Assembly: GCF_001315015.1 (NCBI RefSeq)
Contig: NZ_CP012914.1
Location: forward strand, 620,001-684,000
Length of the DNA stretch: 64,000 bases
Source: Azospirillum brasilense
GTDB lineage: Bacteria; Pseudomonadota; Alphaproteobacteria; Azospirillales; Azospirillaceae
Reading direction: 5' to 3'
Made by a program: the position numbers and the translations under genes. Below, piece by piece: positions 8,836-27,104 of the stretch. The notes beneath the pieces were generated by a model that saw nothing but the letters and a program-made list of their open reading frames with translations, was not told where the DNA came from and searched no databases. How positions within the stretch are numbered: the stretch's first letter is position 1; every line of letters begins with the position of its first letter.

Positions 8836-10790
8836 ACGCAGCAGTTGACCAGGTGGGTAATGAGCGAGATGCGCACGTCGTTGAGGAAATCTGCGGCTAC
8901 GTTACTGGGATTCCCCCACGGAGCTTTTTTCTGTTCGCGGGTGCTGGATCAGGAAAGACGCGCACGCTAGTCGAGGTCCTCCGCCGCATCACTGGCGTGG
9001 TCGAGCACGCCGCGGGCGGAATCTACGCCTCGAAACTGCGCGTGCGAGGCCAGTCGGTACGGGTGATTACATACACGAAAAACGCTGCGAAGGTGGTGAC
9101 GAGTCGACTCGGCGAAAATCGATTGACCGAGGTGTCCACTATTCACTCGTTCTGTTGGGACTTGGTGAAAGGCTTCGACGAAGATATCCGTGAGGCATTG
9201 ATAGCAAAGAACATGGAAGAGCTCGCTAAGGCTAAAGCCCACGCGCAGTCTAAGAAGAGAGGCGAGAGCGACACTGACCGCAGAAAATACGCGGAGTTGG
9301 AAGCCAAGGCGGAGGAACTACGGGCGATCCCCACGTTCCGTTATCACCCCGACCAAAATACGTATGGCGAAGGCGCGCTGTCGCACCAAGAGGTGCTACG
9401 CGTGGCGGCGTGGCTACTTTGCGAGCGGCCTACCTTGCAGCGCATCGTGCAGGACCGGCATCCGCTCCTACTCATCGACGAATCGCAGGACACGATGAGG
9501 GGCGTGCTGGATGCCCTGTTTGACCTCACGACGATTCGCCCTGGCCATTTCACGCTTGGATTGCTCGGCGACCACCGTCAGCGCATCTACCCCGATGGTC
9601 ACGTGGACTTGCCATCGCACATCCCGCCGACATGGGCGCGACCGGCGTTGCAGATGAACCATCGCAGCCGAGAGCGCATTGTCCGGCTTATCAATGCCAT
9701 TTGGGAGGCTGACATTGAAGGGCGCACGCAATCCAAGATCGGAGTGGCCCAGCATCCGCGTAGCGAAAAGCAAGGCGGCAAGGTACGAATATTCGTCGGC
9801 GATACGGCAAACACAACATCCGTAAAGTTAAGTTTTGAGGCTGACTGCGCGCGTTCCATGGCGCAGATAACGGGGGCAGAAGCGTGGAGTGCGAACCAAA
9901 AGAGCTTCAAGACGTTGGCATTAGAGCACAAGTTGGGGGCAAAGCGAGGCGATTTCTACAATATCTACTGCGGGATGGCCTTGCTCGACAAAGAAGCGGC
10001 GACGCCCGACCCCAATGGTGAGAGGATGGGACCAGCGATGGTTCGCCCCCTTCTTGGAGGGCTGCTTGAACTCGCCGAATGCGTCCGGCCAGATGGCACG
10101 CTGGACGAGTTTGCCGCTGTCGCAGTGCTACGCCGTCACAATGCCCTGACAAAGTTGCCGAGCGAACACGCTGCCCGTGCTGTGCGGCTTGCCGAGCTCT
10201 ACGAAGCGATCAGCCGCTTCGCCGTGCTGTGCCACCGTACTGAAGGCGCACAGGTCAAGCAAGTTCTGGCCCCGATTCTGGAGGCCAACGTGCTTCCTGC
10301 TGATTCCCGCCTAGTTGGAGCCTATTGGGACGAGCGCCCGCCGCCGCCAGAACCCGAACGAGAAGCCAGCGAGAGCAAGGAAGACCGTCAGCGTCGCGGG
10401 TGGCATCTCCTGATGAATGCTCCATGGGCCGAACTCGCGCGCTACCGGACATACCTCGGTGGGGAGGCGCCTTTTGCCACACACCAAGTGGTGAAGGGCT
10501 CAGAGTTCAAGCATGTCATGGTCGTCATGGATGACGAGGAGGCCGGAGGAAACCTGTTCTCCTACGATAAGCTGTTCGGTGCCGAAATACTGAGCAAAGA
10601 TGATAAGGATAACATCGCTGCGGGGAAGGAAACCACCATCGACCGCACGCTTCGTTTGCTCTATGTTACGTGCAGCCGTGCCGAAGAAAGCTTGGCGCTG
10701 GTGCTTTGGGCAAAGGACACGAATTCGGCACTGACCGCCATCAACGCGTGCGGCTGGTTTACTGCGGACGAAGTCGTAGTACTTCCGTAA
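8832..10790 (+). CDS. gajB: UvrD/Rep-like superfamily 1 helicase, GajB-like
   Basis: The start is placed at the GTG at 8832, which overlaps the stop of the nuclease gene (GTGA); this gives 652 residues beginning VNAAVDQVGNERD. Helicase motifs appear in order: Walker A FAGAGSGKT (about 35-43), motif Ia VITYTKNAAKVV, STIHSFCWDL, motif II LLIDESQD (about 213-220), motif III GLLGDHRQRIY, motif IV MNHRSRERIV, motif V THQVVKGSEFKHVMVV and motif VI LLYVTCSRAEES. This is a complete UvrD-type set, so ATP-dependent translocation is expected. Pairing with an OLD nuclease is the Gabija signature, where GajB responds to DNA ends and helps activate GajA. It is longer than usual GajB (about 490 residues). 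Confidence 0.82.
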   Translation: MNAAVDQVGNERDAHVVEEICGYVTGIPPRSFFLFAGAGSGKTRTLVEVLRRITGVVEHAAGGIYASKLRVRGQSVRVITYTKNAAKVVTSRLGENRLTEVSTIHSFCWDLVKGFDEDIREALIAKNMEELAKAKAHAQSKKRGESDTDRRKYAELEAKAEELRAIPTFRYHPDQNTYGEGALSHQEVLRVAAWLLCERPTLQRIVQDRHPLLLIDESQDTMRGVLDALFDLTTIRPGHFTLGLLGDHRQRIYPDGHVDLPSHIPPTWARPALQMNHRSRERIVRLINAIWEADIEGRTQSKIGVAQHPRSEKQGGKVRIFVGDTANTTSVKLSFEADCARSMAQITGAEAWSANQKSFKTLALEHKLGAKRGDFYNIYCGMALLDKEAATPDPNGERMGPAMVRPLLGGLLELAECVRPDGTLDEFAAVAVLRRHNALTKLPSEHAARAVRLAELYEAISRFAVLCHRTEGAQVKQVLAPILEANVLPADSRLVGAYWDERPPPPEPEREASESKEDRQRRGWHLLMNAPWAELARYRTYLGGEAPFATHQVVKGSEFKHVMVVMDDEEAGGNLFSYDKLFGAEILSKDDKDNIAAGKETTIDRTLRLLYVTCSRAEESLALVLWAKDTNSALTAINACGWFTADEVVVLP

Positions 10791-11420: not shown

Positions 11421-11650
11421 AGCGATACTCCTTGCTCACCGGTAGTCGCGCCGGTCATGGCGCGGCCGTCATGCCTTATACCAGCGACTCTTTATCCTGA
11501 CCCATCAGGATCAAGAGCCTCGACGGCATGGGCCGGCCGCTTGTGACCGTGGTGTCGCTGATCGGCGGCCGGCGCTTTCGCCATGCTACTCTGGGCGGCG
11601 TGACGGAGCGTTGTCCTTGTTTCACGTCCGTGCCACAGGTGGCTCCACCG

Positions 11651-12301
11651 ATGAAAGATTGGATATCAATGAGCATGCAGCCGTGGGAAGGACGTGACCG
11701 GCTGGTCGCGATCGACATCGAGACGACCGGACGGCGCCTGCCGAGCCTCCAGGACATCAGGAAGGCGCCCAAGGGCCTGCGTCAGCCCGGCATTATCATC
11801 GAAATCGGGTGTCTTGAGATCATCCGTGAGGGCGATGGCTGGAGGAAAGCGCGCAGCTGGGAGTCGCGGGTCAACCCCGACGCCCCTCTCCATCCCGACG
11901 CCATCAAGGTGCACGGCATCAAGCCCGCCGACCTGAAGGTGGCGCCCCGCTTTCCCGAGGTGGCCGACGCGCTTCTCGCCTTTCTGGGCGAGGACCTTCT
12001 GGTGGCGCATGCCTATGAGAACGAGATGGACTTCCTGAACTACGAGTTCGCGCGCTGCGGACGCGCCGCATGGGGTGCCGACACGTTCTCGGCGGACCGG
12101 TTCATCTGTACCAAGGAGATGTCGCACGCGGTCTTCCCCGGCGCTTCCGGCTCGCTCGATGCGCTGTGTGATCGGCTGTGGCTCGACCGGAGTGATCGCT
12201 TCGCCCACCATGGCGCGCTGCTCGACGCAGACCTGACGGCTGATGCCTTCGTCAAAATGGCGTTGGGAGATACCGGCCCGCGCGACGCCGTGTATGAGTG
12301 A
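11651..12301 (+). CDS. DnaQ-like DEDDh 3'-5' exonuclease
   Basis: An exonuclease of about 216 residues from the ATG at 11651; ATGs at 11669 and 11675 are alternatives. The four acidic motifs of the DEDDh family are visible: Exo I VAIDIETTG, a conserved KVHGI that usually follows in DNA polymerase epsilon-type enzymes, Exo II LLVAHAYENEMDFL and Exo III HHGALLDADLTADAF, with the final His and Asp. It resembles the catalytic domain of the polymerase III epsilon subunit but lacks extra C-terminal domains, so a stand-alone proofreading or nucleic-acid processing nuclease is likely. It is convergent with the AraC-type gene. Confidence 0.85.
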   Translation: MKDWISMSMQPWEGRDRLVAIDIETTGRRLPSLQDIRKAPKGLRQPGIIIEIGCLEIIREGDGWRKARSWESRVNPDAPLHPDAIKVHGIKPADLKVAPRFPEVADALLAFLGEDLLVAHAYENEMDFLNYEFARCGRAAWGADTFSADRFICTKEMSHAVFPGASGSLDALCDRLWLDRSDRFAHHGALLDADLTADAFVKMALGDTGPRDAVYE

Positions 12302-12568: not shown

Positions 12569-13570
12569 CTATGATTCCGCACTGCGCGAGGCGCCGGGCG
12601 AATAGCCCATGATGCGCTTGAAGGCACGGCTGAAGGCGGCCTGCGAGCCGTAGCCGAGCCGATGCGCGGCGGTTTCGATCGGCAGACGCTCCCGGCCGAT
12701 CCACTGGGCGGCAAGCCGCATCCGCAGCTCCGTCACGTAGCGGACCGGGGTCACGCCGGTCACCTCCAGGAAGCGCTCCGCGAAGACCGAACGCGAGGCG
12801 CCCATCTCCCCGGCCAGTTCCGCCACGGTCCAGTTGCGGCCGGGATCGCGATGCAGCGCGGTGATGACGCGGCCGAGCCGCGGGTCGCGCAGGGCGTCGA
12901 TCCAGCCGCGCGCATCGCCGCAACCGCATTCGACCCAGCCCCGCACGATGGAGGCGGACACCACGTCGGCCAGCCGCGCCAGGATGCCGGCATAACCGGC
13001 GCGCTCCGCCCGCGCCTCCCGCTCCATCGCTTCCAGCATCGGCAGGATTTCGGGGTAGCGGTCGAGCAGGGTGCCGACCTGCATCACCTCGGGCATCAGG
13101 CCGACCAGCGGCTGCATGGCGCCGAGGTCGAACTCCATGCAGCCGCTGAAGATCACCGCATCCTTCGTTCGGCAGCTTTCCGGCGGGCAGGATTCGAGCG
13201 CACCGACATTGCCGCACAGCGGCGCCGTCGCGAAGCTGGCGACGTCGCGGGCCGACAGTTCCGGCGCCGACAGCAGTTCGTGCGCGCCGCCGCGCGGCAG
13301 CAGCACCGCATCGCCGGTGTCCAGCGTGAAGGTACCGCCAGCGAGCAGCCTCAGCACGACCGGCCCGCGGGCGATGAAATGGAATTGCGCCCGCCCCTCC
13401 ACCGTCCCGAAACCGATGCCGAAGGGAGGGGCGACCTGCATGCGGCGGTACTGCACGCCGGTCAGCCGCATGCCGAGCAGAAGCTCGCTGACGAGGTCGG
13501 TGGCGGGAGGGAGACGGGATGAGTCGGGCATATCCGGACTATCGATCAAACAATGCGGACGTTGTGGCAT
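12569..13570 (-). CDS. AraC-family transcriptional regulator with cupin N-terminus
   Basis: A 333-residue regulator. The N-terminal 190 residues form an AraC-binding-like (cupin_6) domain with GPVVLRLLAGGTFTLDTGD and LPRGGAHELL. The C-terminal HTH_18 domain has RNWTVAELAGEMGASRSVFAERF as first helix-turn-helix and AAHRLGYGSQAAFSRAFKRIMGYSP as second. Such regulators of the YqhC/FtrA type often sense small electrophiles or antimicrobials. It is divergent from the MFS exporter, 62 bases apart, so it probably controls that gene from the shared intergenic region. Confidence 0.88.
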   Translation of the reverse strand: MPQRPHCLIDSPDMPDSSRLPPATDLVSELLLGMRLTGVQYRRMQVAPPFGIGFGTVEGRAQFHFIARGPVVLRLLAGGTFTLDTGDAVLLPRGGAHELLSAPELSARDVASFATAPLCGNVGALESCPPESCRTKDAVIFSGCMEFDLGAMQPLVGLMPEVMQVGTLLDRYPEILPMLEAMEREARAERAGYAGILARLADVVSASIVRGWVECGCGDARGWIDALRDPRLGRVITALHRDPGRNWTVAELAGEMGASRSVFAERFLEVTGVTPVRYVTELRMRLAAQWIGRERLPIETAAHRLGYGSQAAFSRAFKRIMGYSPGASRSAES

Positions 13571-13632
13571 AGATCGTCCAGCACCTCCAATCTACTCTGC
13601 GTCGCAGCATAATCTTCCTGCGAGGACAGACC

Positions 13633-14829
13633 ATGATGGAACCTGTGAGGCAAGCCGGCGCCGCGCCGGCGGAGCCCGCCTGGGGTGCCGTCTTCTCCCT
13701 GACGCTCGGCGTATTCGGACTGGTGACGGCGGAGTTTCTACCGGCCAGCCTGCTAACGCCGATGGCGGCCGACCTGCATGTGACCGAGGCGATGGCCGGC
13801 CAGGCCGTCACCGCGACTGCCGCGGTGGCGCTGGTCGCCAGCCTGCTGATCTCCGCCGCGACCCGCCGGATCGACCGGCGCCATGTGCTGCTCGCCTTTT
13901 CGGCGTTGCTGCTGGTGTCAAACCTAGCCGTCGCCTTCGCCCCCGACCTGCTGTCGCTGCTGGTCGGGCGGGTGCTGCTGGGGGTGGCGCTCGGCGGCTT
14001 CTGGGCCATGTCGGCCGCGATCGCCATGCGGCTGGTGCCGGAGCCGATGATCCCGCGGGCCTTGTCGATGATCTTCAGCGGCGTGTCCGCCGCCACCGTC
14101 TTCGCGGCCCCGATCGGAAGCTATCTGGGCGACCTGCTCGGCTGGCGCGCAGTGTTCCTGATGGCCGGCGGGCTGGGGCTGGCGGCCTTGGTGGCGCAGG
14201 TTCTGACGCTGCCACGCATGGCGCCGAACGGCCACACCAGCCTCCGCACCCTGGGCGAGGTGATGGCGCGGCCTGGGGTCGGGATCGGCATGGTGTCGAT
14301 CATCCTGGTCTTCACCGGGCATTTCGCGCTGTTCACCTATGTCCGGCCGTTCCTGGAGACGGTGACCGGCGTCGGCGTCAGCGGCGTGTCGGGCATCCTG
14401 CTGGGCTTCGGCATGGCGAACTTCGCCGGCACCTATCTCGGCGGCGCGCTGCTGGCGCGCAGCATGCGGCTGACCCTGACGGTCATGCCGCTGACCATGG
14501 GGCTGCTCGGGCTCGGGCTGGCCGCGCTGGGCGGGTCGCCGACCGTGGCCTCGGTGCTGATCGCGCTGTGGGGCGTCGCCTTCGGCGCCGTGCCGGTGGC
14601 CTGGTCCACCTGGATCACCCGCACCGTGCCGAACGAGGCGGAAAGCGCCGGCGGTCTCTTCGTCGCGGCGGTGCAACTCGCCATCGCCACCGGTGCGGCA
14701 GTGGGCGGCGCCATCTTCGGCGTCAGCGGCGCCGGGGGGGTCTTCGGCGCCAGCGGAATCGTGCTGCTGCTGGCCGCCCTGGTCGTGCTGGGAGGCATGC
14801 GCGCGCGGGCAGTCGCTGTCGCCTCCTGA
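13633..14829 (+). CDS. MFS transporter of the DHA1 drug-efflux type
   Basis: A 398-residue protein with about 12 hydrophobic segments, the usual major facilitator size. Near the start are LTLGVFGLVTAEFLPASLL (TM1) and then RRIDRRHVLLAFSALLL (loop 2-3 positively charged motif A region). TM4-5 has GRVLLGVALGGFWAMSAA, which fits motif C-like sequence of drug:H+ antiporters such as YdhP or AraJ. It starts at ATGATG, so 13633 and 13636 are both possible. Substrate is unknown. Control by the divergent AraC-type gene is inferred from arrangement. Confidence 0.88.
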   Translation: MMEPVRQAGAAPAEPAWGAVFSLTLGVFGLVTAEFLPASLLTPMAADLHVTEAMAGQAVTATAAVALVASLLISAATRRIDRRHVLLAFSALLLVSNLAVAFAPDLLSLLVGRVLLGVALGGFWAMSAAIAMRLVPEPMIPRALSMIFSGVSAATVFAAPIGSYLGDLLGWRAVFLMAGGLGLAALVAQVLTLPRMAPNGHTSLRTLGEVMARPGVGIGMVSIILVFTGHFALFTYVRPFLETVTGVGVSGVSGILLGFGMANFAGTYLGGALLARSMRLTLTVMPLTMGLLGLGLAALGGSPTVASVLIALWGVAFGAVPVAWSTWITRTVPNEAESAGGLFVAAVQLAIATGAAVGGAIFGVSGAGGVFGASGIVLLLAALVVLGGMRARAVAVAS

Positions 14830-15962: not shown

Positions 15963-16451
15963 TCACTTGTGACGTTTTCCGGTCATGCCGATCACATTGC
16001 CTGCCGACTGTGCTGCGGCGAGCTTCGCCTTCAAATCCGCGTTCTCACGACGTAGTTCCCGAATTTCTTCAAGGTATTTCTGCTGATCCGCTGCCATCGC
16101 ACGCATGGCCTGCTCGTTGTGGTCCAGACGCCGCAGTTTGCGCGCCTGGACCTGCTTGCGTGCCGCCGTCTTCGATGTGATAACACCGTGCTCGCGGAGG
16201 TTGGTCAGCCATGCCTCGACAATGTTCTTGGTTTCCTTGTGGCGCGGATTTCGAAGCGTAACCGGCCGAATGCCAGCCCTCCGACAAACCTCCGCGATGT
16301 TGAGTCGGCCCTGGTTCTCTGAATAGAGACTGCCATTAATGTATAGTTCAGCCTCGATTGTCCGAAGCATTGCCACAATACGGTCGGCTGTGTCGTGTTT
16401 GCGCAGACGCTGGAATTCGGCCAATGTCTGCCCGCCAGCATGGTCCGTCAT
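15963..16451 (-). CDS. Small coiled-coil partner of the recombinase module (TnpC/GmtX-like)
   Basis: A 162-residue soluble protein. Residues 50-85 (LNIAEVCRRAGIRPVTLRNP) look like a helix-turn-helix, and about 100-150 is a heptad-rich coiled coil (QQKYLEEIRELRRENADLKAKL). It is the last gene of a four-gene minus-strand set, overlapping the recombinase upstream by 4 bases (ATGA). Tn554 and its relatives end with a comparable small gene, tnpC, and the gamma-mobile-trio islands have GmtX. Correspondence is by position and architecture, not by traced homology. Confidence 0.6.
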   Translation of the reverse strand: MTDHAGGQTLAEFQRLRKHDTADRIVAMLRTIEAELYINGSLYSENQGRLNIAEVCRRAGIRPVTLRNPRHKETKNIVEAWLTNLREHGVITSKTAARKQVQARKLRRLDHNEQAMRAMAADQQKYLEEIRELRRENADLKAKLAAAQSAGNVIGMTGKRHK

Positions 16452-18553
16452 GACACCTCTCCCAGAAGTGCCTTGAGCGTTGTTCGCAGGTCATCGGGCA
16501 ACAAGGCAATGCGGCCGGGAGTAATGTTCGCAAGAGCGGGGTGTAATCTTCGGTCGTTCGAGAATTCTTCGAATAATTTTGGGGTTGCAGCGAACTGATC
16601 AAGTAATTGGCGTTGGTAGAATGTGCGCTGCAAGCTGGGCATTTTGCGTTCGTCCATCTTCTCCAGGATGTACCGTACAGACCTTCGGCGATCATCGATG
16701 GCCGCTGCCTCCTCCAAGCGGTGATGGCAATACGGGCTACACCGGCTGACGTCGCGGACCGTGCTTTTGCTGCATAACCCTGGTTGCGCCTCGTTTGCGA
16801 CGCAGTATATCCCCGACCTGACAACTGTCGCGTGCGGCAGGATTGTATCAATTTCCTCGTTGCTCATTATCTCAGCAAACTCTGCCACCCGCGCCGCCAC
16901 ATCGGCGGACCCTGGCTTGTCAAGATCCATTGGGTCACCGAATGCCTGCTTGGCGACGGTGTTGCGTAGCCGCACGATCTCCTTGGCGGCGGGACCGCCC
17001 AGGGTGTCCGCATTTCCGATGATCCGCCGTTTCCGCACCATCTCAGCCTCGTGCCTGACCCGCCGTGCCTGCGCAGCAAAGTCGAGGTCGGACATCATGT
17101 AGCCAATTGTGGTGTCCATTTCACGATGGCCGAGCACGTCAAACAGGACGTGATGGCCATTGTCCAGGCAAAGCCCCACTAGACGGGAAAGAGTTTCCCT
17201 GAACCGCTGAGCGTGAACGCTGCCCTCAATCTGCGATTTGATTGGGTGCTCGCCATCAAGCGACACCGCCTCACAAAAGTATTTGAGGCGATCGTGCAGG
17301 CTTACTCTTTCCTTGTCGTTGCGAGCAATCCAAAGCGACTCTCCTCCTGGCGCGAGTTCTTGCGCGAGTTTGCGCTGACGCCCGAATGCCTCCGCCGCTT
17401 GGCGCGGCAGCGGCCACTGGCGATTCATGGCGAAGGCCTCAGTTTTGAAGGTTCTGCCAGTGAGCAGCGCCAGTTCCTTGGCGTCACCGCCCCATCGGGC
17501 GGGCACAAAGTCGATGAGAGCGTCACGGGTGAGCGCCTCAAGTTCGCCAGCGCGTGCGCCGGTCGCCGCTGCAAGGATAATCCAGTTTGCGACTTGGCAG
17601 AGTCGAAGTGCTTGGTGAATTTGACCAAGAGTTCTAAGAGGCCACGCACTAAATGGCGCATTATATGTGCGTAAATTGTCGCTGCTGGGACTTCCGGTGC
17701 GCTCCTTGATAAATAAAGTCAAGCCGAATATTACGCCTCGACTAAGGTAAGTGCCCGTCCATTCAGCTAAACGCGCTTGGCGGTAAGGATCCATGTACCT
17801 GCTATCGCGGCGGCCCTGATCGTCCACCTCAATGGCGCTAATTTGTTGGTAGCATGCGAGAAAATCCTCCTGAAGCGCCGCCATGGTGAACGCCGCTTGG
17901 CACAACGTCGTAAACGACTGGTCGGAGTAGGGCTGTGTGATATTTGGATCACCGCGCCTGCGGGGGGTATGGCTCTGATGCGCCACGTCGGCCACCGGCC
18001 AATCATCGATTACTCCTGCCGCGAAGAGTGCGTTGAGGCGACTCACAAGCTTGTAGCGGCTCCAGGAAGCATCAGGCAGGACATCCTCCAGCGCAGCCGG
18101 TGATAGTGCTGCGAACAATGGATCGCCATCGGGGCAGCGCGTCGGCGCGCCTCCTTGAGGATTCTCGGCAACCGCCTTGGCCGCAGCATGGAGGGAGCGG
18201 TTCCGGCCCAACCATGTGTTCCAGTGGCCTGGCCCAAAGGGTTTGTTCGATGATCCGCGAACCGAAACCGTGAAATCGATTGCGGCGAGACGCTTCAGCC
18301 GGCGAAGCAGCGCCTGCGCACGCGGTTCTTTGCGGTGCCAGCGTGCAGGAAGGGCCTTGGTAAAGTCCAAAGACGAACACCTGTGGCCCCAACCTTTGGG
18401 CGTGGTCCATGCATCATCCGCAAGCAGCGTTCCGTTCGGCAGGATGATTAGATTGGCGATTTCGCTCCAAGGCGCGGACCACCAATTGGGTCTCGGAAGC
18501 CCAGCGCGCCAAATGTTGATATCGATGGCAACAGCGGCGTTGGTGATCGTCAT
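16448..18553 (-). CDS. Large tyrosine recombinase, third gene of module
   Basis: A 701-residue protein. The catalytic region is in the middle: TGARAGELEALTRDAL (first Arg), HAQRFRETLSRLVGL (HxxR) and VLGHREMDTTIGYMMSD (second His region and nucleophile Tyr). A C-terminal stretch after the active site carries a Cys/His cluster, GLCSKSTVRDVSRCSPYCHH, that may bind zinc. It overlaps the upstream recombinase gene by 4 bases (ATGA) and the small partner gene by 4 bases, so the set is almost certainly one operon. Function by analogy: strand exchange for insertion and excision of the island, together with its two partners. Confidence 0.78.
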   Translation of the reverse strand: MTITNAAVAIDINIWRAGLPRPNWWSAPWSEIANLIILPNGTLLADDAWTTPKGWGHRCSSLDFTKALPARWHRKEPRAQALLRRLKRLAAIDFTVSVRGSSNKPFGPGHWNTWLGRNRSLHAAAKAVAENPQGGAPTRCPDGDPLFAALSPAALEDVLPDASWSRYKLVSRLNALFAAGVIDDWPVADVAHQSHTPRRRGDPNITQPYSDQSFTTLCQAAFTMAALQEDFLACYQQISAIEVDDQGRRDSRYMDPYRQARLAEWTGTYLSRGVIFGLTLFIKERTGSPSSDNLRTYNAPFSAWPLRTLGQIHQALRLCQVANWIILAAATGARAGELEALTRDALIDFVPARWGGDAKELALLTGRTFKTEAFAMNRQWPLPRQAAEAFGRQRKLAQELAPGGESLWIARNDKERVSLHDRLKYFCEAVSLDGEHPIKSQIEGSVHAQRFRETLSRLVGLCLDNGHHVLFDVLGHREMDTTIGYMMSDLDFAAQARRVRHEAEMVRKRRIIGNADTLGGPAAKEIVRLRNTVAKQAFGDPMDLDKPGSADVAARVAEFAEIMSNEEIDTILPHATVVRSGIYCVANEAQPGLCSKSTVRDVSRCSPYCHHRLEEAAAIDDRRRSVRYILEKMDERKMPSLQRTFYQRQLLDQFAATPKLFEEFSNDRRLHPALANITPGRIALLPDDLRTTLKALLGEVS

Positions 18554-20790
18554 TTGGTGACCTCCGCTTGGTTCATTCCGATCAGGGCTGACGCCGCCTC
18601 AACAGATATCGCGCCGAACACGAGTTCGTTGCTTTGCTCCAGGCGCTTGCGATGCTCTCTTACCCACCCCCAAACATGGGCGACGTAGTCCACGAACTTC
18701 TCTTCCACCAAGAGTTCAAGCGCTTCCAACTCGACAGGGTAGACGCTGAGTAGCCAACGTTCGGTTGGAGTGACGGTGCTCAGTGCCTTCAACTCAGCAA
18801 TGCGAACTGCGATGCCGCGCAACGATCCCTTGTCGAAGCGTGCGTGGCGACAAAGGCCACAGCGCTGTGAACCACATAACTCGCCTTCGACCCGCTCGCT
18901 CTTCGGCTCGATTTCCTCTGGCGGATTGGTTGGGTCCACGCAGCGGGCGCCGCACGCCGATCGAAACGCCGCTAGAAACTTCCTATCCTCCTTGGAGACA
19001 ACCTGCCCAGTTCGGTCAGCAGCCAACCGCAGGATGGTCGGGTCGATCGTCCTGCCGGCCTGAGCTTCGTCAAACCCAGCCTCCATCACCCGTGCGCAGC
19101 CCGCAAACCTTTCCCGAATCTGCGACCGTTGGCGTAGATACCTACGAGTCGTGTTGATCCCCCGGTGGTTGAGCGCGGCCTGAACAGCGAAGATGTCGTT
19201 GCCGGTTCGATTGTATATCCATGCGGCATAAGCATCGCGAAAGTCGCTGGGCGTCAGCGAACCGATACCCTCAATGACCTCGAGCGTCTCACCTCTCCGG
19301 ACAGCCTCGGCGATAGCGAGTTCCTTGAGGTCGTTGAACGGCTGCATGACAATATCGCCACCAGATGGCGTGAACCCCGTAGGATTTCCTTTCCCTCTGG
19401 CAGGAAAAAACAGCCAGGGACACCGCACCTGTTCGTCCAACTCAGCAATGCGTCGCAGGTGCTCCGCAGGTGGCGCCGGCATTCGCCGAAGTGTTGCCAG
19501 TTCCTCCTTAACAATCTCGCGCAAGAGGCGTGTGCGCTCGACCATATACTTGATCACAGCGAACGCCCGGAAGCCTTTTTCGGACTGCATCAGCGAGCGC
19601 GTCTGATGCAGTCGCCGAGTCTTTGGCCTGATTGCCGAGAGCTCGGCCTCCGATGGAACGTCGTACTCGTACGTAATTTCCGGGCCGCTGATGATCATCT
19701 CGGTGATCTCAACGGTCCGCCCGCTTCGCTTCTGCACTGTCTGCCGCCGGCCCTCTCTAAACCAATCGTCCGAGGACACATCGATCGCCCGTGCGGTATC
19801 GACCCAGCCGGTTTCTGCCGTCACGAGTGTGAGGGCCGCCACGGCTTCAAGCGACGTAGGCGCGAACAGACTCCACAGTTCTGACTGTGTTGCCAGAGCA
19901 GAGAACCCCGGTACCCCGTCAATATAGCCCAATCGCTTGATCGCTTGATTGATTCCTTTATCAACTGCAGGCACTTCCCTTGAGATGACGATGCCTCTCA
20001 ACCGTGCTTGGAACCGACGGTGCACAGTGAATAGAATATTGTTGGGTTCGTTCCACTCAGGACCGAACGAGCGGTATTCTCCAGGCAGGTGGGCCTTGGT
20101 CAGTTCAACCAGACCGGACGCCCGTTCAAACCGGTCCAAGATCGCTTGACCAGCCGAGTGGCGCGCGCGCCCCTCCGATAAAGTGCGTTTAGCGGCCTCG
20201 TAGAAATACTTTACTGCGCGTGGCGGAACGTCTTTGTGCACCGCCATCCGACGCGAGGGGGGCCAATCGGGCCACGTCCTAATGTTGCACTGCGCGCGAC
20301 TCATCAGTCGACAAAACCCGCGCCACTGGAAGATCCCACGCTGTTCTGTAGAAGCCCCACTCGTAACGGCACTACGCAGCTCGCTGAGGTAGAGTGCAGC
20401 CACATCATCGTCAATGTCTTTCAGCGATTTAACTATTAGTTTAATTTCTTTCTCTTGTGCGTGCGTGAGGAACCGCCAGAAAGTCCGCAATGTAAACAGT
20501 AGCAAATCATGGGTGTTTGGTGACTTTCCGAACAGGTGCCTCCGGATTGACGGTGCGAGGTCGTGGATGAGTCCCGGATTGCCTACGATGCTGGTTGCTA
20601 CGTTTCCATCCCGGAATTCTTCGAGCCCATGCTCGCGCGGTACGCCCTTGTGGTCCCTCCACGCCCAATCGAGCGGATGCGTCATGGGGCGATGCTCATG
20701 GATCATCGTGACTTTCGACGCTTCCTCTTCCGCTATAGCGGTTTCCGCCAGGGCTCGCTCATCCTCCAGGTGTTTCTCGTAGCGGTTCAT
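18550..20790 (-). CDS. Large tyrosine recombinase, second gene of module (TnpB-like)
   Basis: The start is set at the ATG at 20790 (MNRYEKHLEDER), a few bases after the stop of the preceding gene, with AGGA upstream; an ATG at 20823 would overlap that gene by 29 bases. About 746 residues. The integrase fold is recognisable by AETGWVDTARAIDV, SDFRDAYAAWIYNRTG and ALNHRGINTTRRYL with the nucleophile Tyr. The usual HxxR box reads SDFRDA, so its His is replaced, as can happen in TnpB-type partners. A Cys-rich C-terminal segment (CGSQRCGLCRHARF) may bind zinc. Size and position match TnpB of Tn554-like elements. Confidence 0.75.
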   Translation of the reverse strand: MNRYEKHLEDERALAETAIAEEEASKVTMIHEHRPMTHPLDWAWRDHKGVPREHGLEEFRDGNVATSIVGNPGLIHDLAPSIRRHLFGKSPNTHDLLLFTLRTFWRFLTHAQEKEIKLIVKSLKDIDDDVAALYLSELRSAVTSGASTEQRGIFQWRGFCRLMSRAQCNIRTWPDWPPSRRMAVHKDVPPRAVKYFYEAAKRTLSEGRARHSAGQAILDRFERASGLVELTKAHLPGEYRSFGPEWNEPNNILFTVHRRFQARLRGIVISREVPAVDKGINQAIKRLGYIDGVPGFSALATQSELWSLFAPTSLEAVAALTLVTAETGWVDTARAIDVSSDDWFREGRRQTVQKRSGRTVEITEMIISGPEITYEYDVPSEAELSAIRPKTRRLHQTRSLMQSEKGFRAFAVIKYMVERTRLLREIVKEELATLRRMPAPPAEHLRRIAELDEQVRCPWLFFPARGKGNPTGFTPSGGDIVMQPFNDLKELAIAEAVRRGETLEVIEGIGSLTPSDFRDAYAAWIYNRTGNDIFAVQAALNHRGINTTRRYLRQRSQIRERFAGCARVMEAGFDEAQAGRTIDPTILRLAADRTGQVVSKEDRKFLAAFRSACGARCVDPTNPPEEIEPKSERVEGELCGSQRCGLCRHARFDKGSLRGIAVRIAELKALSTVTPTERWLLSVYPVELEALELLVEEKFVDYVAHVWGWVREHRKRLEQSNELVFGAISVEAASALIGMNQAEVTK

Positions 20791-20794
20791 TGCA

Positions 20795-22063
20795 TCATTC
20801 CATCCTGTCGAGCCAGTTGGCATACTCCCGGTGCGCGCGCGATACCTGGAGTTGAGCGGCCACCCATTTCAGGTACATCTCAGTGGTCTCAGCGCTGATG
20901 TGACCGAGCTGTGGCCTGATCAGTGTGGTGATGACATGGTCGAAATGCGGTTGCACGAGCCCTGCGAGCTCGAGACCACCGCGAGACACCGCTTCGGCCA
21001 TAGGGTAGAGTTCGTCCAGCAGCGTATAGCACGCCCAGGTGTGGCGCCCGAGATGCGGGCTCCACTGCGGCAGAGGCACCGGTCCGACCTTCCACTTCCC
21101 CCAAAAGGTGCGGTAGGCTATAGGTCCGCCGGTGTCCGGGCTTAGGAACAACTCTCGGGGTTCTGCGGCACCCGGGTTCTTGCGCAGGAATGTGCGCAGC
21201 GCGATCTTGCGGCGACCACGCGCGTAATCCTGCAACCTTTCCAGCGCCCTGAGGGATAGTATAATCCGCCGGGGCTTGCCGCGTGCCTCCGGATCGTTAG
21301 GCTTTCGACCGCCCTTCGTGCCGTATTGGACGAGCAGAGTGGCGTCATGATCGTGCGGCCCCGGCTTCTTCACGGGCTGCAGGCAGGAGACCCGCAACCG
21401 CAGAATCTCTTCGGCTCTCAGAGCGGTCCGCAATAACGTCCAGCACATGAGCGCATCAACATTCGCCGTGTGGCTGTCGCGCGTCTGTAGATAGGTCAGC
21501 CACTCCTCAATCGCCGAACGCTCAGGCAGCGACAAATCCCCGGGATCGGGCCGCACGCCCCCGACCAGCCGGCGCCGCGGTGCGGCAGACTTGCGCGGAT
21601 CGGAGGCAACCACCTCCACAACCACTTCAAACGGTCCGCGCTCTTCCGCGTTCGCCGCCCAAGTCAAGAAATCAACGGCTGTGTGGAATCGACCGTTGAT
21701 GGTAGACGGTGCAAGCCTCCCGCAGACCATCGGATTAACGTACCGGTCGAGTACCCCTTGGTAGTCGAGTTCCCGCCAGTTGATTCGGCGGCGCTCGCAA
21801 TGCGTGATAAAGTGCTCAATCTGTCGGCCGTAAGTCACTATCGAGCCGTCGCTCGGAATGCGTTTCCGGGCGTAAGCACTTGGGGCGTGCGCCTCGCAGT
21901 TTTCATTTCCGCGAATCCATCGTCCCCTCCCGATGTCCATGAGGTATTGCGACGCTGGCGCATGACACTGGTAATTTCGATCGTATAGGACCGGAATCCG
22001 CGCCAAGTCCTGAGTGCCAATAGTCGTCGCCCGCAGTTTGCACGGCATAATTATGAAGGCCAT
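20795..22063 (-). CDS. Tyrosine recombinase, first gene of module (TnpA/GmtY-like)
   Basis: About 422 residues from the ATG at 22063, chosen because AAGGGGGG lies just upstream; an in-frame ATG at 22108 lacks such a site. The protein has a SAM-like core-binding N-terminal region and a standard catalytic domain: LLRTALRAEEILRLRV (first Arg), SPHLGRHTWACY (HxxR) and QLGHISAETTEMYL (His and nucleophile Tyr). All key residues are present. It begins the four-gene recombinase operon; only 63 bases separate its start from the IS5-type element beyond, so the element end must lie close by. Confidence 0.82.
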   Translation of the reverse strand: MAFIIMPCKLRATTIGTQDLARIPVLYDRNYQCHAPASQYLMDIGRGRWIRGNENCEAHAPSAYARKRIPSDGSIVTYGRQIEHFITHCERRRINWRELDYQGVLDRYVNPMVCGRLAPSTINGRFHTAVDFLTWAANAEERGPFEVVVEVVASDPRKSAAPRRRLVGGVRPDPGDLSLPERSAIEEWLTYLQTRDSHTANVDALMCWTLLRTALRAEEILRLRVSCLQPVKKPGPHDHDATLLVQYGTKGGRKPNDPEARGKPRRIILSLRALERLQDYARGRRKIALRTFLRKNPGAAEPRELFLSPDTGGPIAYRTFWGKWKVGPVPLPQWSPHLGRHTWACYTLLDELYPMAEAVSRGGLELAGLVQPHFDHVITTLIRPQLGHISAETTEMYLKWVAAQLQVSRAHREYANWLDRME

Positions 22064-22122
22064 GGTGCCCCCCTTGGTTCGAGTATATGGCATCAAGTTT
22101 TGTTCCACATGTCGACAACGCT

Positions 22123-22126
22123 TTAG
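22123..22126. repeat. 4-bp target duplication of outer IS5-type element (right copy 26360-26363)
   Basis: TTAG directly precedes the left end (22127) and directly follows the right end (26359) of the second IS5-type element. IS5-family elements favour YTAG-like 4-bp targets. Confidence 0.75.
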
Positions 22127-22141
22127 CAGGCTGCTGAAAAA

Positions 22142-22308
22142 CTACCAGCGATGAGCCTTGATCTGGATTTTGTCGCTGTGGTGGATGCTGATTTCGACTT
22201 CAAGGCTGCCATCCTCGGCCAGTTCGGCCGTGCCGGTGCCGCGGATGGGGGTCATCTCGTTGTCGCCCTCGAAATCGAAGAAGATGCTGCTGATGCTGGT
22301 CTCGCACT
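22142..22308 (-). pseudogene. Passenger protein of IS5-type element, C-terminal part
   Basis: The C-terminal half of a 108-residue acidic protein, reading ECETSISSIFFDFEGDNEM and ending KIQIKAHRW before a TAG. The N-terminal half is at 25047-25202. Excising the IS1380 and IS630 elements with one CTAG copy joins QAGL to ECETS in frame. I recognise the EPAYIRFD...GKMVFG...EGDNEM pattern as a small uncharacterised protein seen in many genomes; no function is known to me. Confidence 0.7.
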
Positions 22309-22312
22309 CTAG

Positions 22313-23902
22313 CCCGGATCATTCATCAGCGTTTTGGAACGGCGGTCCGAAGGCGCGTCGATGGGTGGCGCCAACGGCGCGGCATGACGGGGCTCAAGGG
22401 TTGCGGGGACAGGTTCGTTCGGGGGCACGCCGCCCCTGCGGTTACGGCGGCAACTTCGCGGTACGGGCGGCCAGCATCGCCAGGCTTTCCTGGTAGGGGA
22501 AGCCGGCCGGCAATGACACCTTGATGCGGGTCACCATCTCGGTGACCCGCGCCGCCACCTTGATGAGGCCGAGGCGCAGCGTGTCGAACTGCGCCTCGCG
22601 CCAGAACGACGCCTTCGGCGCCAAGCTGCGCAAGGTGTGCAGCAGCCAGTAGGCGGCGGTGTGGATGAGCAGCCGGAACTGGTTGGCCGTGGCCTTGCTG
22701 CACGACGTCCGGTCGGAGGCGAGGTGCAGCTTGTGCGCCTTGATCAGGTTCTCCATCTGCCCGCGCGCGCAATAGGTGGTCTCGTACAGCGCCTTGGCCG
22801 TGCCGGTCAGGTTAGTGACGATGAAGCGCGTATCGGTGCCTTGGGCCGACGCCTCGACGCGGGCGATGACCCGGCGCTCGACCTTCCAGGAGCGGGCGGC
22901 ATAACGGAACTCGCCGAAGCGGCGCACTTTGTCCACCTCCCCAGCCACCCGGCCCATCGCGGCGTCCTCGGCGAGGGCCGTGACGCGCCCGAGCAGGACG
23001 GTGTTGCCGCCCAGGCCGAAGATGTAGCCGACGCGGTTGCGCTCGCACCAACTCATCGCTTCGTGGCGGCCGTAATGGCTGTCGCCGCGCACCAGGATAT
23101 CGACGCGCGGCCAGCGGGCGCGGATGGCCCGCACGACATGGCGCAGCACCAATGCCACCTCGGTACCGTCCGGCGTTTTGCCGGGCCGCAGAATGACGGC
23201 GACCGGCTTGCCGGTGGTCGCCTCGTAGATGTGCATCGGCAGGAAGCAGCGCCCGTCGTAATGGGCGTGGAAGAGGGACAGCTGCTGGGCGCCGTGGACG
23301 CGGTCCTCGGTGTCGTCGATGTCCAGCACGAGGCGCCGCGGCACCGTGACGAAGCTATCGCAGAACAGCTCCACCATGGCGGCCATCATGCGCTTGAGCG
23401 CCACCGGACCGGGCAGATTCTCCAGGCGGCTGATGGTCGGCTGCGAGCACAGGTCGCCCCCGCTCTCGGGAAGTCGGCCGACCGCCATCTTGAAGGCGGG
23501 ATCGCTGCGCAGGGCGTCGCAGTCGTTGGCGTCGGCGTACCCGGCGGCGATCAGCAGGGCGCGGAAGCGGATCATCTCCGCCAGCGTGTGCCGGACGCGC
23601 TCGGGAGCGCGCGGGTCCTCGATGCAGCGCGCCAGGCGCTCGCAGACCCCAAGCCGCCGATCGATCTCGGCCAGCAGCAGGACGCCGGCGTCGGAGGTGA
23701 GACGGCCGCCATCGAAGGCGGCGTGAACCGGCTTGCCGGCAACCGGTGACAAGCCGGGCAGAACCCCGGTACTCTCGGCCATGGCGGGCGTGAACTCCGT
23801 TGATCCGTGGTGAGACTGCTTCAGCACCAGAATCATACACGAAGTCAGCGGCTTAACCTCGCGCCCGCCACCCCCAGCTTCAGCTCTGGTGAATTATCCG
23901 GG
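22313..23902 (-). mobile_element. IS1380-family insertion sequence
   Basis: Inverted repeats: CCCGGATCATTCATCAG from 22313 and, on the minus strand from 23902, CCCGGATAATTCACCAG (15 of 17 identical). The left flank is CTAG (22309-22312); the right flank CTAG is itself split after CTA by the IS630 insertion (CTA 23903-23905, TAG 25044-25046). IS1380-family elements make 4-5 bp duplications, which fits. Confidence 0.88.
22442..23836 (-). CDS. IS1380-family transposase
   Basis: A 464-residue DDE transposase of normal length for the family. Characteristic segments are FDGGRLTSDAGVLLLAEIDR near the N-terminus, LCSQPTISRLENLP, the first Asp in LVLDIDDTEDRVHG, the second in DILVRGDSHYGRHEAM, and CARGQMENLIKAHKLHLASD with the catalytic Glu region. 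The frame is intact, so this copy may be active. It sits inside the passenger gene of the outer IS5-type element. Confidence 0.92.
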   Translation of the reverse strand: MILVLKQSHHGSTEFTPAMAESTGVLPGLSPVAGKPVHAAFDGGRLTSDAGVLLLAEIDRRLGVCERLARCIEDPRAPERVRHTLAEMIRFRALLIAAGYADANDCDALRSDPAFKMAVGRLPESGGDLCSQPTISRLENLPGPVALKRMMAAMVELFCDSFVTVPRRLVLDIDDTEDRVHGAQQLSLFHAHYDGRCFLPMHIYEATTGKPVAVILRPGKTPDGTEVALVLRHVVRAIRARWPRVDILVRGDSHYGRHEAMSWCERNRVGYIFGLGGNTVLLGRVTALAEDAAMGRVAGEVDKVRRFGEFRYAARSWKVERRVIARVEASAQGTDTRFIVTNLTGTAKALYETTYCARGQMENLIKAHKLHLASDRTSCSKATANQFRLLIHTAAYWLLHTLRSLAPKASFWREAQFDTLRLGLIKVAARVTEMVTRIKVSLPAGFPYQESLAMLAARTAKLPP

Positions 23903-23905
23903 CTA

Positions 23906-25043
23906 GTGCACTGACTCATTCAGAAGGTGCAGGCAACCGATCGAGTTTGGCGAAGATGGTGTCGGCGGGCTTGGTCCAGACGAAGGGCTTGGCCGCCTTG
24001 TTGTGCGCGCGGATGTAGCGTGCGATGGCGTCCTGGAGATCGGCCACGGACTTGAAGACGCCGCGTCGGATGCTTCGGCGGGTGATGATCGAGAAGAAGC
24101 CCTCGACGGCGTTGATCCAGGAGGCGGACTTGGGCGTGAAATGGAACACCCAACGGGGATGATCAGCCAGCCAGTCCAGCACCTTCGGGTGCGTGTGGGT
24201 GGCGTAGTTGTCGACGATGGCGTGGATCACTTTGCCCGCCGGGACGGCGCGTTCCACGGCGGCGAGGAACTTGATGAACTCCTTGTGGGTGTGCTTGGGC
24301 ATGCAGCGCCCGACCACGGTGCCGTCCAGCGTGTTCAGCGCAGCGAACAGCGTGGTGGTGCCGTTGCGCTTGTAGTCGTGCGTCATCGTCCCGCACTTGC
24401 CGGGCTTCAGCGGCAAGCCGGGCTGGGTGCGGTCAAGCGCCTGGATCTGGCTCTTCTCGTCGATGGACAGCACCACCGCATGGCAGGGCGGGTCCATGTA
24501 AAGCCCGACAATATCCTCGACCTTGGCCGCGAAGGCCGGATCGCTGGAGCGTTTGAAGGTGCGCAGGCGAAGCGGTTGAAGGCGGTTGGCCTCCCAGATG
24601 CGCTGTACGGCGCGCAGGCTGATGCCGATCGTCTTGGCCATGGCCCGGCCTGTCCAGTGGGTGACGGCGCCAGGCGGTTCCGAACAGGTCAGCGCCAGCA
24701 CCTTGGCCACCGTCGTGGTGGGCAGCGGTGCCCGGCCGGGCTTGCGCGTCTTGTCGCGCAGCAGACCATCGACGCCCTGTTCGGCGTAGCGCACCTGCCA
24801 GCGCCACACCGCTGGGCGGCTGACACCGGCCCGGCGCGCCACCTCCTGCACGGGCAGCCGGTCGGCCGAGAGCACAATGATGTTTGCCCGCTGGATATGC
24901 TTGAGCGGGCGGTTGCGGTCGCCGAGGAGCACAGCCAAGCGCGCGCGGTCCTCCGGTCCAACGATGACGCTAACGGTCTGGGCCATGCCGATAGAATCGC
25001 ACGTCGGCGGCCCTCTATGAATCCTATGTCTGCGTCAGTGCAC
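23906..25043 (-). mobile_element. IS630-family insertion sequence
   Basis: The 1,138-bp element starts GTGCACTGAC at 23906 and ends with the complement at 25043. It is flanked by TA on both sides (23904-23905 and 25044-25045), the fixed target duplication of the IS630/Tc1 group. It lies inside the CTAG target duplication of the neighbouring IS1380 element, so it arrived later. Confidence 0.9.
23916..24986 (-). CDS. IS630-family transposase
   Basis: A 356-residue IS630 transposase. The N-terminal helix-turn-helix reads LPVQEVARRAGVSRPAVWRW; the DDE domain has AVVLSIDEKSQIQAL (first Asp), VIHAIVDNYATHTH (second Asp) and FHFTPKSASWINAVEGFFSI with the catalytic Glu. The frame is intact and full length. 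This copy differs from the IS630-type tail at the start of the window, which lacks this C-terminus. Confidence 0.93.
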   Translation of the reverse strand: MAQTVSVIVGPEDRARLAVLLGDRNRPLKHIQRANIIVLSADRLPVQEVARRAGVSRPAVWRWQVRYAEQGVDGLLRDKTRKPGRAPLPTTTVAKVLALTCSEPPGAVTHWTGRAMAKTIGISLRAVQRIWEANRLQPLRLRTFKRSSDPAFAAKVEDIVGLYMDPPCHAVVLSIDEKSQIQALDRTQPGLPLKPGKCGTMTHDYKRNGTTTLFAALNTLDGTVVGRCMPKHTHKEFIKFLAAVERAVPAGKVIHAIVDNYATHTHPKVLDWLADHPRWVFHFTPKSASWINAVEGFFSIITRRSIRRGVFKSVADLQDAIARYIRAHNKAAKPFVWTKPADTIFAKLDRLPAPSE

Positions 25044-25046
25044 TAG

Positions 25047-25202
25047 GCCAGCCTGAAGAGCGCCGAACACCATCTTGCCGCGGCCGTCCTCGTCGAAACG
25101 GATGTAGGCCGGCTCGACCAGATTGAGATTGGCACAGTCCCACTGGTCGGCTTCGGTGAGGCGCCACTTGCCGAGCACCTTGCAACGTCGTGCCGTCGTC
25201 AT
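25047..25202 (-). pseudogene. Passenger protein of IS5-type element, N-terminal part
   Basis: The N-terminal half of the 108-residue passenger: MTTARRCKVLGKWRLTEADQ through VEPAYIRFDEDGRGKMVFGALQAGL. Its ATG (25202-25200) overlaps the transposase stop as ATGA, which suggests translational coupling and that the gene belongs to the element. It is interrupted by the IS1380/IS630 nest and resumes at 22308. It is small, acidic and has no signal peptide. Function unknown. Confidence 0.72.
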
Positions 25203-26285
25203 GGCGCCGCCTCCAGCAACTTGGGCAGCCGGATCAGGTTGTAGGCCGGCGTGGCGAAGGTGAAGGCCCAGCCCACCTGGGCGGTGCCGCGGAAGCGGCT
25301 CTTGCGATGACCAGCCACCGTCTTGACCCAGCCGAACACCTCCTCAATGCGCTTGCGGCAGCGTCGGCTCACCTCGTAGCCGGAATGCCGGGTGGTGCGC
25401 GCGTCGATGCGCGAACGCCGCCTCGACGTGTTCTGCCACATGCGGCGTGGCCTTGAGCGCGCTTAGGTCGGCCACGAAATCGGCCGTATCGTAGCCCGTG
25501 TCGGCGCCCACCGTGATGCGGTGCCGGCCCTCCAGTGCGCCGACCAAGTCCAGCGCGGCGATCCGCTCAGCGGTGCCGCTGGCCTGCGTCAGCCTCGCCC
25601 CGACCACCAAGCAGTTCCGGTTCTCCATCAGCACGTGGCCCATGAAGCTGAGCTTGGCCTCCTTGCCGCGTCCTTTGCGGAACAGCTTGGCCTCGGGATC
25701 GGTCACGCTGGCGTGCGTGTCGTTGCTGCGCCGCTCGCCATGGAAGTTCCGTTCGCCGTTGCGCCCCGGCCCCGGCGGCTCGTCACTCCCGTCCTTGGGA
25801 CGGAAGCTCTTCATGCTGGCCCATGCCTCGACCAGGGTGCCGTCCACTGAGAAGTGCTCGTCCGAAAGCAGGCCCTTGATCTTGGCGTGCGCGACCACGG
25901 CACCGAGGAAAGCACCGGCCACGTCGCCGGCGAGCAGGCGGTCGCGGTTCTTGGTGAAGACCGTCGGATGCCAGACCGGATCGTCCACGCCCAGCCCGAC
26001 GAACCAGCAGAACAGCAGGTTGAAGTCGATCTGCTCGGCGAGCTGGCGTTCCGAGCGGATCGAGTAGAAGGCTTGCAGCAGCAGCGCCTTGAGCACCTGT
26101 TCGGGTGGGATGGGCGGCCGCCCGGTGCTGGCGTAAAGCCCGGCGAACGCCGCGCCCATGCCAGCCAGCACCTCGTCGACCACCGCCCAGATCGCCCGCA
26201 GCGGATGCTTCGCCGGAATCCGCTCCTCCAGCGAGACGTAGCTGAACATCGCGCCCTGGTGCGACTGCCGTCCGCGCATCCCCAT
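25199..26285 (-). pseudogene. IS5-family transposase with one frameshift
   Basis: The first part (26285 to about 25435) reads MFSYVSLEERIPAKHPLRAI, GLYASTGRPPIPPEQVLKAL, FSVDGTLVEAWAS (first Asp) and GADTGYDTADFV (second Asp). The catalytic-Glu part, RKRIEEVFGWVKTVAG, is in another frame (25441-25199). A natural protein would read TPHVAQNTSRRRSRIDARTTRH across the break, which needs one more C near 25435; the sequence GTGGCAGAAC looks like GTGGCCAGAAC with one base lost. So this is a single-base deletion, not a programmed shift. The element cannot make its own transposase. Confidence 0.8.
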
Positions 26286-26372
26286 GACCTCGCCTGACCA
26301 CCACAGGGCAAGCGAATCACAACCATGCCGCGCCGGGAAGGGTGTTTTTCAGCAGCCTGTTAGAGCGTTTAT

Positions 26373-27104
26373 TTGCCCCCCCAAAAGAAAATCAATTTCC
26401 GCTGGCTGAAGGCACCGGGAGAGACCTATGGCCGGTCGCCGGTCATGAAGGCGTTGCCCGACATCAAGACCGCCAACAAGGTGGTCGAGCTGGTGCTGAA
26501 GAACGCCTCCGTCGCCGTCACCGGCATCTGGCAGGCCGACGACGACGGGGTGCTGAACCCCGCGACGATCCGGCTGGTGCCGGGGACGATCATTCCCAAG
26601 GCGGTGGGGTCGGCCGGGCTGACGCCGCTCGCCAACCCCGGGCGGTTCGACGTGTCGCAGCTCGTGCTCGACGACCTGCGGGCGCGCATCCGCCACGCGC
26701 TGCTCGCCGACCGGCTGGGGCCGCTGGACCAGCCGCGCATGACCGCGACCGAGGTGGTCGAACGCTCCGCCGAGATGGCCCGGCTGCTCGGCGCGACCTA
26801 TGGGCGGCTCCAGGCGGAGCTGCTGACCCCGCTGGTGCTGCGCGCCGTCGGCATCCTACGCCGCCGCGGCGAGATTCCGGACATCGCGGTCGACGGGCGC
26901 ACGGTCGCTCTGCAGCACCGCTCGCCGCTGGCCCAGGCGCAGGCGCAGCGGGACGTCCAGGCAACGCTGCGCTGGCTGGATACCGCGCGGCAGCTCGGAC
27001 CGGAGGCGCTGTCCGCGGTGGACGTCGCGGCGACCGCGCGCTGGCTGGGCGAGGCCTTCGGCGTGCCCGCCAAACTGGTGCGGGCGGAGGCGCCTCATGG
27101 CTGA
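26373..27104 (+). pseudogene. Phage portal (head-tail connector) protein, N-terminus missing
   Basis: The frame corresponds to the C-terminal part of a podovirus portal (bacteriophage head-to-tail connecting protein family): FRWLKAPGETYGRSPVMKAL, then DIKTANKVVELVLKNASVAV and later a helical QAQAQRDVQATLRWLD region. A full portal of this family has roughly 500 residues or more; only about 240 remain. Recognisable portal sequence begins near 26,394, just right of the TTAG target duplication at 26,360. A TTG at 26373 is only a formal start. The loss of the N-terminus coincides with the edge of the mobile island, so insertion or deletion there broke the prophage. It overlaps the next gene by 8 bases. 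Confidence 0.75.

Follow-up and report, generated by a model that had tools for sequence, protein, structure and literature searches.

The stretch of Azospirillum brasilense DNA analysed here (64,000 nucleotides of contig NZ_CP012914.1, positions 620,001 to 684,000, hereafter the window) contains part of a defence-carrying island inserted in a phage portal gene, and this island is, in our estimation, quite probably an integrated mobile element of the type of the rarely studied strand-biased circularizing elements (SEs), bearing a four-gene recombinase engine that, judged from its sequence, looks like a distant relative of theirs. Coordinates are those of the window unless prefixed by C1 (the contig), and leftward of base 1 the numbering continues with 0 and negative values, window -19779 being C1:600221.

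The borders of the island are fixed by empty sites in five genomes of the same genus (G008, G009, G043, G005, and G015), where the sequence corresponding to C1:600221 is joined to that of C1:646391 (window 26391) with no gap and with identical breakpoints in all five. This comparison with strains lacking the island, advised in a preliminary description of the region, defines an insertion of exactly 46,169 base pairs (bp), or 41,916 bp without the nest of insertion sequences (ISs) at 22117-26369, whose interior holds two immune systems, type II CBASS (cyclic oligonucleotide-based antiphage signaling system) and Gabija, and one end of which is occupied by the recombinase module. The island occupies 1-26390 of the window and extends leftward to C1:600222, 19,779 bases before base 1, its G+C content of 62.9% being lower than that of its flanks (68.1% and 70.4%). 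Insertion took place after codon 268 of a portal gene of 505 codons. The C-terminal part (codon 269 to the end; 26391-27104, plus strand) is assigned to PHROG 332, and the match of 26373-27104 covers only the C-terminal half of this family, annotated there as connector or head-tail adaptor, in agreement with the earlier proposal that the portal gene beside the module had lost its N-terminus. The lacking portion, expected to the left of base 1, was found there: 268 codons ending at C1:600221, 46 kb leftward, both halves being free of stop codons, and the intact open reading frame (ORF) for the 505-residue protein is present in G008 (L021, 13455-14972). The region carries the footprint of one integration event with exact ends and with its cargo.

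The structure of the junctions is informative as to the type of element. For SEs and Tn554 published reports describe a spacer rule, according to which six bases of the target stay on the intA side and six bases of the donor are found at the far side (PMC10214605, PMC9345347). The terminus on the side of the first module gene, gene A (26370-26390, fixed by the five empty sites), reads TTTCTTTTGGGG inward. The empty-site junction reads STTC-ATCAAC-TTYC in all five relatives (GTTC in three and CTTC in two), and at the gene A border the island ends with GAAA followed by ATCAAT (26391-26396, attL), i.e., by the host attB spacer, ATCAAC in 5/5 relatives, with a single synonymous change. The far border reads, in succession, GTTC of the host, CATGTG, and TTTC of the island, CATGTG coinciding with the host spacer at none of six positions. 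Six bases of the host attB at attL and six foreign bases at attR are precisely what is expected from an SE. The ends of the island read inward, TTTCATGTGATGGG and TTTCTTTTGGGGGG, form imperfect inverted repeats alike at 10 of 14 positions, a likeness that 155 of 200,000 pairs drawn at random from the island attain and that corresponds to the imperfect terminal repeats (13-19 bp) of SEs; over 19 bases it is weaker (10/19, reached by 3,228 of 200,000 random pairs).

A nest of three ISs separates the terminus just described from gene A. One IS with 26-bp inverted repeats (22117-26369), recognized by these repeats and by transposase domains, is split by two elements with transposase domains of their own (about 22309-23906 and about 23900-25049); the members of the nest presumably belong to the families IS1380 and IS630. 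The outer IS ends only 21 bp from the right border of the island, inviting the supposition that the whole 46-kb block is an IS-bounded composite transposon with the recombinases as unrelated passengers. At the left border, however, inspection by eye of the first 119 inside bases reveals no copy of the 26-bp IS end, and at the right border 21 bases of the island lie outside the IS, so that we consider such an origin very improbable.

The recombinase module consists of four consecutive minus-strand ORFs located head to tail over 15963-22108. Gene A (20795-22108) encodes an intA/ginA-like tyrosine recombinase of 437 residues if translated from GTG, or 422 residues from ATG at 22063. Gene B (18550-20823) encodes a Tfp-like degenerate tyrosine-recombinase-like protein of 757 residues with a Cys-rich C-terminus, gene C (16448-18553) an intB-like large tyrosine recombinase of 701 residues, also Cys-rich at its C-terminus, and gene D (15963-16451) a Srap-like small protein of 162 residues. 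The ORF layout confirms the tight packing of three genes for proteins of tyrosine-recombinase type with one for a small coiled-coil protein, as the preliminary description had it, while the ATGA overlaps mentioned there hold for two of the three junctions: B/C and C/D overlap by the four bases ATGA, whereas genes A and B overlap by 29 bases if the first start of B is used, or not at all with the shorter start giving 746 residues. In Pfam the integrase matches of A and B are weak, falling below the curated cut-offs, and a scan of the module proteins gave no Pfam match for C, which was first recognized by means of a PHROG integrase profile (5.4e-5), PHROGs assigning integrase to A, B, and C alike. 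The AlphaFold2 model of B (mean pLDDT 48.1, pTM 0.35) was too poor for use.

The four-gene arrangement recurs, with its order unchanged, in two Microvirga strains, Azonexus hydrophilus, Zoogloea ramigera, and a Dechloromonas metagenome-assembled genome, as well as in G078 (with gene A interrupted), G684, and G735. Alignments for B, C, and D comprised the window element and eight relatives, and for A seven relatives, with G078 omitted owing to its interrupted gene. The SE-side set used for comparison included ten elements (nine for A and nine for D), eight records being taken from the 157 and 178 plasmid records matched, and the genes of the SE on plasmid pAQU1 were chosen by their position beside blaGMA-1 and by gene order. 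This set omitted L070 (second gene at a contig end), L071, L072, and L073, also L036, L056, and L057 (other gene orders, weak or partial matches), L051-L055 (no or weak matches), and L058 (order B-C-D?-A). The wider alignments united nine elements of the own clade (eight for A) with ten of the SE side (nine for A), 19 elements in total (17 for A).

Catalytic residues divide the three large proteins into two intact recombinases and one degenerate counterpart. In A, the box I Arg, the His and Arg of the box II motif HxxR, and the Tyr are kept in all 17 elements. In C, the box I Arg, the box II Arg, and the Tyr are found in 19/19 and the box II His in 18/19, the sole exception being the protein of the window itself, with Gln449 instead, which retains R334, K370, R452, H476, and Y485. 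In protein B neither the box I Arg (replaced by Asn in 16 elements) nor the box II His is found in any of the 19 elements, but all 19 retain the Tyr column and the Arg of box II. Thus, from the three tyrosine recombinases announced earlier, A and C have the residues of such enzymes and B appears degenerate in the alignment with its relatives. The Cys-rich C-termini of B and C proved to be a conserved feature: C628, C650, and C655 of B and C584, C594, C605, and C609 of C are present in 9/9 aligned elements. The published gene order of SEs is intA-tfp-intB-srap, and the succession found here, i.e., intact recombinase, degenerate Tfp-like protein, intact large recombinase with Cys near its C-terminus, and small Srap-like protein, agrees with it apart from the Gln at the box II His position of the third protein. 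Further likeness to SEs concerns the imperfect terminal repeats, the six-base spacer rule, and the lack of conjugation genes among the ORFs scanned in the island.

The position of the degenerate protein bears on whether the island belongs to the GInt (ginABCD, Tn6571) family. GInts likewise have a four-gene operon at one end with variable cargo adjacent to it, as well as imperfect short repeats, and in E. coli they carry defence systems, as reported (PMC10121019); all four genes were required in one GInt. In published descriptions, however, GinA and GinB are intact and it is the third protein, GinC, that is degenerate, lacking the first Arg or all of RHRY, whereas the residue alignment obtained here shows degeneration in the second protein and an intact third one. 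Besides, a 2023 survey finds ginC-ginD blocks "not at all" in Alphaproteobacteria, though a paper of 2017 reports some there. Because the degenerate protein is the second and not, as in those published descriptions of GInts, the third, the GInt interpretation was set aside, and we regard it as unlikely.

The probable kinship with SEs is further supported by profile-profile comparison of the own clade with the SE-side set, where each of the four proteins pairs best with its positional counterpart: A with A at 99.8% (1.3e-30), B with B at 98.4% (1e-14), C with C at 98.9% (1.4e-17), and D with D at 94.8% (5.5e-8), the best pairing off position being that of B with C (4.5e-9). In the trees of B and C, the own nine elements are split from the SE-side ten by a branch with full support, and the own clade has alpha- and betaproteobacterial members. 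Identity to the proteins of the pAQU1 element amounts to 18-23% over aligned residues, which resembles the range of 20.5-26.6% published for the two founding SEs. Apart from this low identity and the separate clade with alpha- and betaproteobacterial hosts, the island differs from published SEs in its length (46 kb against a median of 15.7 kb and a maximum of 58.5 kb), in carrying two immune systems as cargo, in its target, i.e., a phage portal gene, and in the Gln replacing the box II His of IntB.

Several circumstances weigh against the assignment to SEs. Against the proteins of the pAQU1 element by themselves, significant scores are confined to C (4.9e-5) and A (2.2e-4); D has none (0.14), and B is at least as close to IntB (0.0087) as to Tfp (0.0096), so that the link to a proven SE passes through bridging elements. 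In the SE-side profiles a single row has experimental proof, namely SE-Pda04Ya311 of pAQU1, for which strand-biased circularization was demonstrated in print, and the nine others, gathered by similarity to two elements, are candidate SEs. The trees of B and C have long branches, which the tool itself warns may be joined falsely. Outside the window element, the spacers could be compared in G684, the sole other relative with recovered termini, where the host DNA flanking the element lies on two contigs and is joined in G1115; compared with this attB, the spacer differs at 1/6 positions at attL and at 2/6 at attR, which makes it a weak check of the rule. For G735 the flank of the element was found in 0/18 other genomes of its genus, giving no empty site. 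Kinship with GInts was judged by published descriptions. Finally, the host is an alphaproteobacterium, and SEs are presented in print as confined to Gammaproteobacteria, a range that is not a defining feature. The SE-side set itself includes two elements from plasmids of betaproteobacterial Cupriavidus and one from Paraburkholderia, and if these are SEs, the published limit may be too narrow.

The initial impression was that the layout recalls Tn554 or the gamma-mobile-trio (GMT) with a third large recombinase added. The nearest relatives, however, look SE-type, and the additional large recombinase-like protein of SEs is Tfp. Tn554 shares with the island the six-base rule, the combination of a large and an ordinary recombinase, and a small protein, TnpC; it has three proteins only (tnpA, tnpB, and tnpC against four genes here), none of them being a counterpart of the extra protein. 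As for GMT, the NCBIfam profile VPA1267, whose members are located beside gmtX, matches D weakly (5.6e-7, 29.8 bits, below the cut-off of 90). GMT has GmtX and only two recombinases: that of Pseudoalteromonas contains gmtY (485 residues), an integrase (887 residues), gmtX (225 residues), and a VPA1267 protein (145 residues) with no third large recombinase, and the own profiles of A, B, and C do not score against it (best E 0.72), while the profile of D misses its VPA1267 protein. Searching 299 genomes with the VPA1267 family gave nine matches, the own genome included, of which three exceeded the cut-off, and the one of these that was followed (G664) matches records annotated with gmtX. We therefore hold derivation from GMT or a Tn554-type element by addition of a recombinase to be extremely improbable. 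Trios of the RIT type, with three intact recombinases of 315-410 residues and 34-bp inverted repeats, were considered too and differ from the module in protein sizes (437, 757, and 701 residues).

The four-gene module is rare in the genomes sampled. In the order sample 2/82 genomes matched, the own included, and in the class sample the own genome was the only match among 385 (at most two candidates per genome being scored among the matches listed). In the phylum sample 6/398 genomes matched, again with the own one, and only three of these six (G000, G684, and G735) have the four-gene order. A profile of C with nine rows applied to the class of G664, taken to be Gammaproteobacteria, matched 7/274 genomes with the best E of 1.5e-13 but led no further, and the comparison of gene C with viral contigs matched two stretches, neither being a relative. 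Two of the relatives have a defence-like gene nearby: in Microvirga VF16 a KwaB-like gene lies upstream of gene A and thus may not belong to the element, and in Microvirga BT688 gene D is followed by a PDC-M68B/LmuB-like gene; in G684 two scanned cargo ORFs gave no clear defence match. Near the A end the relatives have a response regulator (G684), a gene with a Mg-chelatase domain (Azonexus), a deoxynucleoside kinase (Zoogloea), and a ketopantoate hydroxymethyltransferase gene (Dechloromonas), and because these genes differ, it is improbable that the family as a whole targets the portal gene. Related modules were also encountered on plasmids. In L058 (p727-IMP, 358651-370482), where the matches of D and A are weak, the module is followed by genes for an AAA ATPase and a UvrD helicase, Gabija-like in appearance. 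On pHG1 of C. necator H16 (L080), further tandem integrase genes resembling RIT-type trios are located on both sides of an SE-like module.

The proposal that the module serves as mobility engine of a defence-carrying island is supported by the exact insertion and by the location of the module at one end. By analogy with described SEs, in which circularization is strand-biased and leaves no empty site behind, we infer that such an engine would act with strand bias, copy out the element, and still be active. IntA (gene A) and IntB (gene C) would be the likely strand-exchange enzymes, cutting six bases apart beside the terminal repeats, with Tfp (gene B) and Srap (gene D) acting as their partners. 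Exchange of one strand between attL and attR would allow copying out of a circle containing six bases of the left flank of the donor, and this circle would enter attB in a single orientation, leaving the six bases of the donor (CATGTG) at the distal end and the six of the target at the proximal end, while defence genes would travel as cargo. In SE-6283, intA, intB, and srap were each required for circle formation and tfp could not be deleted. The activity of the copy studied here is open to doubt because the IS nest parts the terminus from gene A and protein C has Gln449; this copy may be crippled or immobile.

The cargo lies to the left of the module, where CapV- and Gabija-like genes had been noticed from the sequence, and both attributions hold. 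The CapV-type phospholipase effector of CBASS (302-1309, minus strand) matches the NCBIfam CBASS lipase NF041079 at 2.3e-119, and Gabija is complete with GajA (6496-8835, plus strand; PADLOC 1.2e-241) and GajB (8793-10790, plus strand; PADLOC 5e-216) standing together over 6496-10790. The CD-NTase, Cap2, and Cap3 genes and a gene for a Cap15-like protein are located in L006, in the part of the island to the left of the window, so that CBASS has the CD-NTase, the E1-E2 protein (Cap2), and the JAB protein (Cap3) of a type II system plus the effector. From the left, the order is endonuclease, oxygenase-like protein, permease, Cap15-like protein, type II CBASS with CapV, two transposase genes (families IS256 and ISL3), Gabija, DEDDh exonuclease (11528-12301, plus strand; Pfam RNase_T 1.6e-22), AraC-type regulator (minus strand) and major facilitator superfamily transporter (plus strand), both recognized by domain matches within 12569-14829, and the module. 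For the left 20 kb of the island this list is partial, selected ORFs having been scanned, some with no match. As a separate observation, the Cap15-like gene (L006, 14144-14749) and the CapV gene, two candidate CBASS effectors on the minus strand, flank the CD-NTase operon.

To the right of the island, genes for capsid, tail, and large terminase are found, and the segment 26391-41450 as a whole represents a podovirus-like locus with portal, capsid, tail proteins, and large terminase preceding pyrD. Capsid and terminase DNA is matched in all 24 other genomes of the genus sampled, at about 74-95% identity, and in many of them DNA before pyrD matches on the same contig. From its sequence, the locus appears to be phage-like and vertically inherited, and it may be a domesticated phage or a gene transfer agent. 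The earlier view that the island had inserted in a prophage therefore stands as regards the phage-like nature of the target, but because of the 24/24 matches the target was probably a locus of long residence and not a recently acquired prophage. Inside this locus, a HAMP-PAS-GGDEF-EAL gene (28267-30651) was also noted, and G008 has an ORF of similar length at the same place.

In another species (G038), an insert of about 15.7 kb (L026, L097-L098; G038:C102:27733-43443) interrupts this portal gene at a point 128-146 bp beyond that used by the island, and the overlap of the host BLAST pieces by 19 bp suggests that this insert is flanked by a direct repeat. Among its genes are those for a phage capsid with protease, for a large terminase, and for a DUF927 protein; the insert is unrelated to the island of the window. 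These two cases, the only ones so far, suggest that the portal gene may be a landing site for unrelated elements. One may go further and imagine integration as attack, in which the SE-type island and the G038 element share the portal site, disable DNA packaging of the resident phage, and load the cell with immunity of their own, and in which SE-type elements form an alpha- and betaproteobacterial lineage of defence vehicles that was overlooked since its proteins are too diverged for PSI-BLAST; taken as a whole, we find this scenario rather unlikely.

Defence islands with several integrases have a precedent, defence-carrying GInts of E. coli being already in print (PMC10121019). In the literature searched, there was no report of SE-type elements outside Gammaproteobacteria or of their carrying CBASS or Gabija. 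The Tfp-type protein is described in print as having no catalytic residues, and the Tyr column kept in 19/19 elements, contrary to this view, makes its role directly testable. An alpha- and betaproteobacterial lineage combining the same layout and the six-base signature with two complete immune systems would provide a concrete vehicle for moving defence genes, and the existence of SE-type elements in these hosts may explain some of the "integrase-only" defence islands.

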